Below are positions 13,928-15,603 of a stretch of 64,000 nt of DNA, piece after piece. The notes beneath the pieces were generated by a model that did not search any database, had not been told where the DNA came from, and saw only the letters and a program-made list of their open reading frames with translations. Position numbers and translations under genes: made by a program. Positions within the stretch are counted from its first letter, which is position 1, and each line of letters starts with the position of its first letter. The stretch comes from Frondihabitans australicus (GTDB lineage: Bacteria > Actinomycetota > Actinomycetes > Actinomycetales > Microbacteriaceae), in the NCBI RefSeq assembly GCF_003634555.1, contig NZ_RBKS01000001.1, positions 3,968,001-4,032,000 on the forward strand, in the 5' to 3' direction.

Positions 13928-14551
13928 CTACAGGGTGATGAGGCCCTGGGTCTTCGTGGTGGCTGCCGTGTAACGAGCCTGGACGTTGTCCCAGGAGACG
14001 ATGTTCCAGAACGCCTTGACGTAGTCGGCGCGGACGTTCTTGTAGTCGAGGTAGTAGGCGTGCTCCCAGACGTCGAGCATGAGCAGCGGGACGAGGCCGA
14101 AGGGGACGTTGCCCTGCTGGTCGAACAGCTGGAAGATCGACAGCTTCTCGCCGAGGATGTCGTAGGCGAGGACGGACCAGCCGGAGCCCTGGACGCCGAG
14201 CGCGACGGCGGTGAACTGGGCGGTGAACTTGTCGAACGAGCCGAACTGGTCGTCGATCTGGGCGGCGAGGTCGCCGGTGGGCTTGTCGCCGCCGTCGGGC
14301 GACATGTTGGTCCAGAAGATCGAGTGGTTCACGTGTCCGCCGAGGTTGAACGCGAGGTCCTTCTCGAGCTTGTTGATGGTGGCCAGGTTGCCGGACTCGC
14401 GGGCCTCGGCGATCTGGGCGACGGCGGTGTTCGCGCCGGTGACGTAGGTCTGGTGGTGCTTGGAGTGGTGCAGCTCCATGATCGTGCCCGAGATGCTCGG
14501 CGCGAGAGCCGAGTAGTCGTACGCAAGGTCAGGAAGGGTGTATTCAGCCAC
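13928..14551 (-). CDS. sodA: Superoxide dismutase (Mn/Fe type)
   Basis: A 207-residue cytoplasmic enzyme that converts superoxide to oxygen and hydrogen peroxide. The start [17 protein letters not shown] is typical. The four metal ligands are His28 (in ELHHSKHH), His76 (in [10 protein letters not shown]), Asp160 and His164 (in [12 protein letters not shown]). [11 protein letters not shown] is the central conserved box. The metal is probably Mn, judged by the actinobacterial relatives, but not proven. It is divergent from soxR; its promoter contains a SoxR box in a 19-bp spacer (14580-14610), which predicts direct redox control. A strong hairpin terminator follows. Confidence 0.97.
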
Positions 14552-14579: not shown

Positions 14580-14610
14580 AGCCTAGGATCTCAAGTGCAC
14601 TTGAGGTCAA
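14580..14610 (-). promoter_or_regulatory. sodA promoter with SoxR box in a 19-bp spacer
   Basis: On the minus strand the -35 TTGACC (14605-14610) and -10 TAGGCT (14580-14585) are separated by exactly 19 bp, the over-long spacer that MerR-family activators need. The spacer holds CTCAAGTGCACTTGAG (14590-14605), a perfect 16-bp palindrome that matches the known SoxR site pattern CCTCAAG-NNN-ACTTGAGG. SoxR would twist the DNA and switch on sodA. The same site lies upstream of soxR. Confidence 0.85.
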
Positions 14611-14646: not shown

Positions 14647-15096
14647 GTGACGAAGAACAGCCACGACTCCCTCACTATCGGCGAGGTCGCGCGCCGTTCG
14701 GGCGCCACCGTCGCGACCATACGCTTCTACGAGTCGAAGGGTCTGGTGCACTCGGGCCGCACGGTGGGCGGCACGCGCGTCTTCGCGCGACATGCGCTCC
14801 GCCGCGTCTCGATGGTGCGTCTCGGCGTGCAGCTCGGGATCCCGCTCGCCGACATCGCGACGGCGTTCGAGTCGCTGCCGGTCGACCGTGCGCCGAGCCG
14901 CGAGCAGTGGCAGACGATCTCGTCGGCGTGGAACGCCCAGGTCGAGGAGCGGATCCGCACGCTCGCCGCGATGCGCGCCAAGCTCACGGACTGCATCGGC
15001 TGCGGGTGTCTCTCGCTCGGCACGTGCTCGCTCCTCAACCCCGACGACGCGCTCGGCGACGAGGGGCCGGGGCCGCAGCGGGTGCTGAGGGTGTGA
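14647..15096 (+). CDS. soxR: Redox-sensing MerR-family activator SoxR
   Basis: A 149-residue regulator. Residues 9-75 form the MerR winged helix (LTIGEVARRSGATVATIRFYE), followed by a dimerisation helix and the [2Fe-2S] cluster motif CIGCGCLSLGTC with Cys116, Cys119, Cys121 and Cys127 (Cx2CxCx5C), which is diagnostic of SoxR. Oxidation of the cluster activates target promoters. The start is read as GTG at 14647; an ATG at 14636 is in another frame and stops after four codons. AGGAAG lies rather far upstream (about 15 bases). It is divergent from sodA with a SoxR box between them. Confidence 0.93.
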   Translation: MTKNSHDSLTIGEVARRSGATVATIRFYESKGLVHSGRTVGGTRVFARHALRRVSMVRLGVQLGIPLADIATAFESLPVDRAPSREQWQTISSAWNAQVEERIRTLAAMRAKLTDCIGCGCLSLGTCSLLNPDDALGDEGPGPQRVLRV

Positions 15097-15150: not shown

Positions 15151-15603
15151 ATGTCAGAACATGAGCGGCGCGTTGTCGACGACGGCGAGATCACCTTCCG
15201 CACGCGCAAGTGGGTGCGGCCCGAAGACCTCAACGCCAACGGCTCGCTGTTCGGCGGCAGCCTGCTGCGCTGGATCGACGAGGAGGCGGCGATCTACGCG
15301 ATCCTCCAGCTCGGCAACGGCTACGTCGTCACCAAATACATCTCCGAGATCAACTTCGTCTCGAGCGCGCGGCAGGGCGACCTGGTCGAGATGGGGCTGC
15401 GGGCCACGCACTTCGGCCGCACGTCGCTCACGATGCGGGCCGAGGTGCGCAACATGGTGACGCGGCAGTCGATCCTGACCATCGACAAGATGGTCTTCGT
15501 GAACCTGGCGGCCGACGGCACGCCCCTGCCCCACGGCTACACGAGCATCACCTACGACCGCGACCGCCTGCCCGACGGCGCCGCCGACGCGACGGTCCGC
15601 TAG
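15151..15603 (+). CDS. Hotdog-fold acyl-CoA thioesterase
   Basis: A 150-residue acyl-CoA hydrolase of the YciA/BACH type. The family run is clear: RPEDLNANGSLFGGSLLRWIDE with the catalytic-loop Asn and Asp, then KYISEINFVSSARQGDLVE and GRTSLTMRAEV. It splits acyl-CoA to free acid and CoA in the cytoplasm; chain preference cannot be read. The ATG at 15151 has no ribosome site; CACTAT stands six bases upstream as a weak -10 candidate. Copies of the 12-bp word lie both just upstream (15121) and just after the stop (15606). Confidence 0.88.
   Translation: MSEHERRVVDDGEITFRTRKWVRPEDLNANGSLFGGSLLRWIDEEAAIYAILQLGNGYVVTKYISEINFVSSARQGDLVEMGLRATHFGRTSLTMRAEVRNMVTRQSILTIDKMVFVNLAADGTPLPHGYTSITYDRDRLPDGAADATVR

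Follow-up and report, generated by a model that had tools for sequence, protein, structure and literature searches.

The locus described here raises the question whether SoxR in an actinobacterium may switch on a superoxide dismutase gene directly. Whether SoxR outside the enteric bacteria contributes to superoxide defence or only to the handling of redox-cycling compounds is debated. The second view is presented for Pseudomonas and Streptomyces in the available parts of two reports (PMC3534580, PMC4146615). The initial annotation of the stretch of DNA analysed (64,000 nucleotides of Frondihabitans australicus, hereafter the window, corresponding to C1:3968001-4032000 of a single-contig genome of 4,036,723 bases) had proposed that SoxR may control sodA here without SoxS, and the comparisons below lend this proposal support: it is very probable that SoxR directly activates one of the two nearly identical sodA genes, without a go-between of the E. 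coli type. The features concerned are collected in Table 1.

Table 1. Features of the soxR-sodA region, in window coordinates.
Feature	Position	Strand	Evidence
Predicted sodA promoter: -35 TTGACC 14610-14605, 19-bp spacer 14604-14586, -10 TAGGCT 14585-14580	14580..14610	-	Sequence; pattern match
Predicted SoxR box, perfect 16-bp palindrome CTCAAGTGCACTTGAG, inside TTGACC-N19-TAGGCT	14590..14605	.	Sequence, pattern counts, conservation 4/4
sodA, Mn/Fe superoxide dismutase, 207 aa, GTG start	13928..14551	-	PF02777, PF00081; one of two genome copies
soxR, 149 aa, GTG start	14647..15096	+	TIGR01950; PDB 2zhg
Codons of C116-x2-C119-x-C121-x5-C127, expected [2Fe-2S] ligands	14992..15027	+	Translation; aligned with E. 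coli SoxR cysteines
Hotdog thioesterase (4HBT), downstream of soxR, same strand	15151..15603	+	PF03061; synteny

The gene divergent from sodA, for which the initial annotation noted a Cx2CxCx5C motif, encodes a true SoxR. Its product scores 178.9 bits against the SoxR equivalog model TIGR01950, above the curated cut-off of 116.9; it matches the SoxR of the solved SoxR-DNA structure (PDB 2zhg, E 3.9e-38); and over 134 aa it shares 49% identity with E. coli SoxR, its four cysteines having the C-x2-C-x-C-x5-C arrangement of the expected ligands. The thioesterase gene is present or absent together with soxR at all seven Frondihabitans loci and may, by inference, be part of the soxR unit.

The promoter lies between sodA and the divergent soxR. 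As originally noted, TTGACC and TAGGCT stand 19 bp apart with a perfect palindrome between them, and direct reading places them exactly at 14580-14610, so that both a palindromic box between -35 and -10 and the 19-bp spacer of a SoxR-activated promoter are found. The -10, which is weak by E. coli standards, is separated by 28 nt from the GTG start of sodA (14551), and the start of soxR is 42 bp from the box. A generic promoter scan that considered only spacers of 16-18 bp reported no promoter there. In the window, CTCAAGTNNACTTGAG at up to three mismatches matches once, with 0 mismatches (shuffle mean 0.62), and the single match of TTGACY-N19-TANNNT is exactly this element (shuffle mean 0.04; 4 of 100 shuffles had one). 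Genome-wide, the box at up to two mismatches occurs in one place, the site itself with 0 mismatches; because the reversed-pattern control at the same threshold also gave one place, the box alone is unspecific at two mismatches, and loose versions do occur by chance, both in the window shuffles and in the genome control. The composite TTGACCTCAASNNNNSTTGAGRTNNTA at up to one mismatch has one genome-wide match and none for the reversed control. The 31-bp element is a real and probably functional SoxR promoter. With the sole box of the genome (up to two mismatches; composite up to one) at sodA-soxR, an efflux-type regulon was not found at these thresholds, at which weaker boxes may escape; sodA, and perhaps soxR, are therefore the only visible targets. 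What the box promoter precedes is sodA and not soxS, the SoxR target of the enteric two-step system.

Conservation of the site in relatives, which the initial annotation had put forward as a check, was followed in seven Frondihabitans genomes, soxR being counted as absent where TIGR01950 gave no match at E 1e-20. It is present in four (the window genome G000, G201, G246 and G285) and absent from three (G004, G087 and G150). In all four soxR-bearing genomes the promoter block GCTTGACCTCAAG-GCACTTGAGATCCTA-GCT is invariant except at two positions, and the sequence just upstream of it hardly aligns among them. The other three have the same sodA, locus and neighbours, but in them soxR and the thioesterase gene downstream of it are missing. 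They keep the register of the sodA promoter, with TTGACC and TAGGCT retained in G004 and G150 and the -35 altered in G087, and in all three the half-sites have decayed: 12 of 36 half-site positions are changed without soxR versus 0 of 48 with soxR (Fisher 1.1e-5, positions and genomes being non-independent), that is, out of 12 per genome, 2 in G004, 5 in G150 and 5 in G087, and 0 in each of the soxR-bearing four. A whiA+gapA tree of the genus, made for counting soxR losses, was poorly supported.

Two of these genomes show further peculiarities. In the complete genome of G285 (F. sucicola, L069/L131) the reading frame of soxR breaks at about codon 80 although the sodA site is conserved, which counts against the proposed control; the split is either a sequencing error or a recent pseudogene. 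In the soxR-less G087 (L041) changes in both halves of the box upstream of sodA have produced a different palindrome, which reflects either chance or another regulator.

The same geometry recurs outside the genus. A script that collected every sodA with a box (up to two mismatches) within 260 bp upstream returned 30 rows and 19 distinct sites. The 11 sites of the own family (Microbacteriaceae), selected by box and sodA only and without use of -35, -10 or spacing, all have a -35 of TTGACC or TTGATC, a -10 of TANNNT and a 19-bp spacer. Among the eight sites from other families, which are preselected because they were taken from the composite pattern, seven fit and L358 misses when the script's box is used. 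In g11 and g78 (L194, L196, L201, L248), the -10 ends 6-7 nt before the start codon of sodA, which suggests that these transcripts are leaderless.

Three other explanations of the element can be weighed against direct activation of sodA. The box might mainly serve autoregulation of soxR, with sodA constitutive and merely sharing the intergenic region. The short distance between soxR and the box would fit, as does S. maltophilia, in which SoxR acts at a shared divergent site to repress soxR (PMC4411124, available part), and because the box is common to the region upstream of soxR, autoregulation could account for part of the conservation. However, the conserved -35 and -10 are oriented towards sodA, and a 19-bp spacer is poor without an activator. 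Moreover, the same promoter stands before sodA where soxR is not divergent or is distant: in L205 and L209 the box is located past the end of soxR and before sodA, in L273 it precedes sodA with soxR absent nearby, and in L337, L349 and L353 soxR is likewise not nearby. The promoter of soxR itself cannot explain the box in L205, L209 and L273, and autoregulation as the main role is unlikely.

The palindrome might also serve another regulator, with soxR a bystander. That soxR-less G087 still has a palindrome at this place (CCCGTGCACGGG), although both of its half-sites have changed, speaks for this, as one case that is possibly chance, but the half-sites are those of the E. coli SoxR box and decay where soxR is missing, which makes a different regulator very unlikely. 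A functionless chance resemblance can draw on the fact that loose boxes do arise at random; it is scarcely credible for an exact composite that is kept in 4/4 soxR-bearing relatives amid diverged flanks and repeated in other genera, and a chance origin was rejected on these grounds. Direct control is supported by the retention of the site with soxR and its decay without it, and by the occurrence in other genera of sodA genes with a box promoter of the same 19-bp spacing, including those loci in which soxR is non-divergent or distant. That 14580-14610 is a promoter of sodA activated directly by SoxR is, on this comparative evidence, highly likely.

The initial annotation had also pointed to related Microbacteriaceae as the place to look for a divergent soxR-sodA pair. 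In a sample of 299 genomes of the family, 68 had a SoxR match (66 above the TIGR01950 cut-off), and all their soxR regions were taken; in 23 of the 68, distributed over nine genera, no more than 4 kb separates sodA from soxR, and no sodA is near soxR in the other 45. The box promoter appears to drive sodA itself in g1, g11, g14, g58 and g78, and in g43, g51, g63, g73, Agromyces and Cryobacterium sodA comes after a flavin reductase gene with a SoxR box, at times accompanied by ferredoxin and Fpr-like reductase genes. In L218, L219 and Agromyces loci, soxR stands opposite an operon of ferredoxin, Fpr-like reductase, flavin reductase and sodA, which is complete in L218 and L219. When 73 loci were scanned for box promoters, the first downstream gene (by a heuristic choice of reading frame) encoded a flavin reductase in 18, an MFS transporter in 18 and sodA in 8; the family thus also contains SoxR targets of the efflux type, and in three g63 genomes both kinds of soxR occur, one of each.

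Linkage to soxR goes together with a second sodA. At least two sodA matches occur in 31 of the 299 genomes, namely in 22 of the 23 with soxR-linked sodA versus 9 of the 276 others (Fisher 3.8e-25); in the 23rd soxR-linked genome (G093) sodA is cut by a contig end. Among the nine others, the additional gene is the decayed-box copy in G004 and G087, has a box promoter in G160 and lies behind a flavin reductase gene in G258 and G280; G022 and G254 hold fragments, and G062 and G176 fit none of these categories.

Beyond the family, 52 of the 248 genomes examined from the order contain the composite, with 0 for the reversed control among the matches listed, and sodA is present in 10 of the 30 composite loci kept from the order. 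SoxR occurs in 225 of 394 genomes of the class; from the listed matches among these 225, 40 soxR loci outside the family were picked so as to spread over families, and none has sodA nearby in the stretches of 3.7 to 9.5 kb covered (0/3 in f26/g117, 0/37 elsewhere). A class-wide rule of soxR-sodA linkage was rejected on this count. Because 45 of 68 family genomes and all 40 class loci are unlinked, proximity to sodA does not characterise SoxR in general; direct SoxR control of superoxide dismutase seems frequent in the order and rare elsewhere in the class.

A SoxR tree, built on only 142 columns and leaving out two rows, a partial SoxR and the split one of G285, needs nine changes of the sodA-linked label, at least seven of which are forced by well-supported branches, where three label changes can equal one gain and two losses. 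The g11 proteins lie inside an MFS-linked clade, apart from the others. A single origin of the link is unsupported by these nine changes, and because at least seven are forced, repeated recruitment is favoured. The link would have been gained or lost several times, and relatives of Frondihabitans appear to have wired the pair more than once.

The second sodA of the window genome (C1:1360246-1360866, L040) is boxless and lies at the whiA-gapA site. A boxless sodA stands between whiA and gapA in six of the seven Frondihabitans genomes; in G150 (L365) the two genes are adjacent with no sodA between them, so that the only sodA found there is the decayed-box copy, which has kept its 19-bp spacer in a genome without soxR. 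Within genomes, the coding DNA of the two copies is 98.6% identical in G000, 99.4% in G201, 99.2% in G246 and 98.7% in G087, and between genomes roughly 82-91%; the exception is the G285 pair with only 87.6%, and G004, whose copies hold runs of N, was left out. In the sodA tree the four near-identical pairs cluster by genome with support of 99-100%, and in the window genome the flanks of the two copies are unrelated directly past the stop codon. Gene conversion that does not extend beyond the coding sequence is the simplest reading of these near-identical pairs. Since each of the two sodA sites is syntenic throughout the genus, it is more likely than a series of recent duplications into them. 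The homogenised twin sodA is the least expected feature of the finding.

By analogy with the SoxR family, a SoxR dimer would sit on the palindrome between -35 and -10. With reduced SoxR, the 19-bp spacer would leave -35 and -10 misaligned for RNA polymerase; once a redox-cycling compound has oxidised the [2Fe-2S] cluster, SoxR would distort the spacer and allow transcription of sodA. Bound SoxR may also repress its own divergent gene. The boxless copy at whiA-gapA would provide basal superoxide dismutase, and the soxR-linked copy would add to the supply of this enzyme when it is needed. In this scheme binding, redox switching, activation and autorepression, as well as basal expression of the second copy, are carried over from the SoxR family.

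Taken together, and held with a little more belief than doubt, these results may be read as follows. SoxR of Frondihabitans would have shrunk to a one-target switch with superoxide dismutase as its sole effector, and gene conversion confined to the coding sequence would maintain an identity of about 99% between two sodA genes at different sites, giving one enzyme under a housekeeping and a SoxR-driven promoter. In the family and the order, SoxR would have gained control of superoxide dismutase repeatedly, in independent events. The superoxide dismutase gene would stand alone or share an operon with those for flavin reductase, ferredoxin and Fpr-like reductase, and a single step would thereby restore part of the SoxS route of E. 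coli. A lineage in which superoxide dismutase is the only visible target of SoxR, with relatives that lack soxR and have a decayed site, makes the debate on the role of SoxR testable by one gene deletion, and a pair of near-identical enzymes, each with its own promoter, would allow effects of dose to be told apart from differences between isoenzymes.

Control of a superoxide dismutase by SoxR has parallels outside the enteric bacteria. In Agrobacterium tumefaciens, a superoxide dismutase gene, sodBII, is reportedly induced in a SoxR-dependent manner, according to work by Saenkham in 2007; this is likewise a SoxR-dependent superoxide dismutase, but an iron enzyme in an alphaproteobacterium. In S. 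maltophilia, which has two MnSOD genes, SoxR is needed for the induction of sodA1 by menadione and sodA1 has a SoxR box, while sodA2 is constitutive; as in Frondihabitans, there are two sodA genes, one with a SoxR box near its promoter and one boxless, and near-identity of the two is not stated in the available part of that report (PMC6479884). Unlike Frondihabitans, S. maltophilia is a gammaproteobacterium, and the available part of a further report describes mfsA as another target of its SoxR (PMC4411124). The case of sodA1 means that direct SoxR control of superoxide dismutase outside the enterics has already been reported.

Among actinobacteria, the six-gene SoxR regulon of Streptomyces coelicolor resembles the case proposed here, an actinobacterial SoxR without SoxS, but it is described without a superoxide dismutase, neither 'superoxide dismutase' nor 'sodA' occurring in the report (PMC4146615). 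The statement of the initial annotation that the described SoxR targets of Streptomyces and most non-enteric bacteria are efflux and oxidoreductase genes for redox-cycling compounds, not superoxide dismutase, holds for S. coelicolor as far as that report goes and needs correction in view of S. maltophilia sodA1 (PMC6479884). In the parts of the genome reports available, soxR and sodA are reported in Herbiconiux (Microbacteriaceae) with no link drawn (PMC10011130), and soxR without soxS in Arthrobacter (PMC3534580). The literature searched, which left most subscription journals outside, gave no report of sodA being controlled by SoxR in the Microbacteriaceae or elsewhere among Actinobacteria, so that, as far as these searches reach, the case is unreported for this phylum.

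The closest likeness in promoter architecture is to E. coli soxR-soxS. The soxS promoter in the E. coli record (NC_000913) reads TTTACC-TCAAGTTAACTTGAGGAAT-TATACT, with a 19-bp spacer and the box overlapping the -35, in agreement with the early remark that the enteric site has the same half-sites. Both systems share a divergent soxR, CTCAAG/CTTGAG half-sites between -35 and -10, the 19-bp spacer, the overlap with the -35 and SoxR proteins that are 49% identical. In E. coli, sodA is reached through SoxS, as stated in the available part of the source (PMC13405713); in Frondihabitans, unlike E. coli, the predicted target of SoxR is not a second regulator but the enzyme gene sodA itself.
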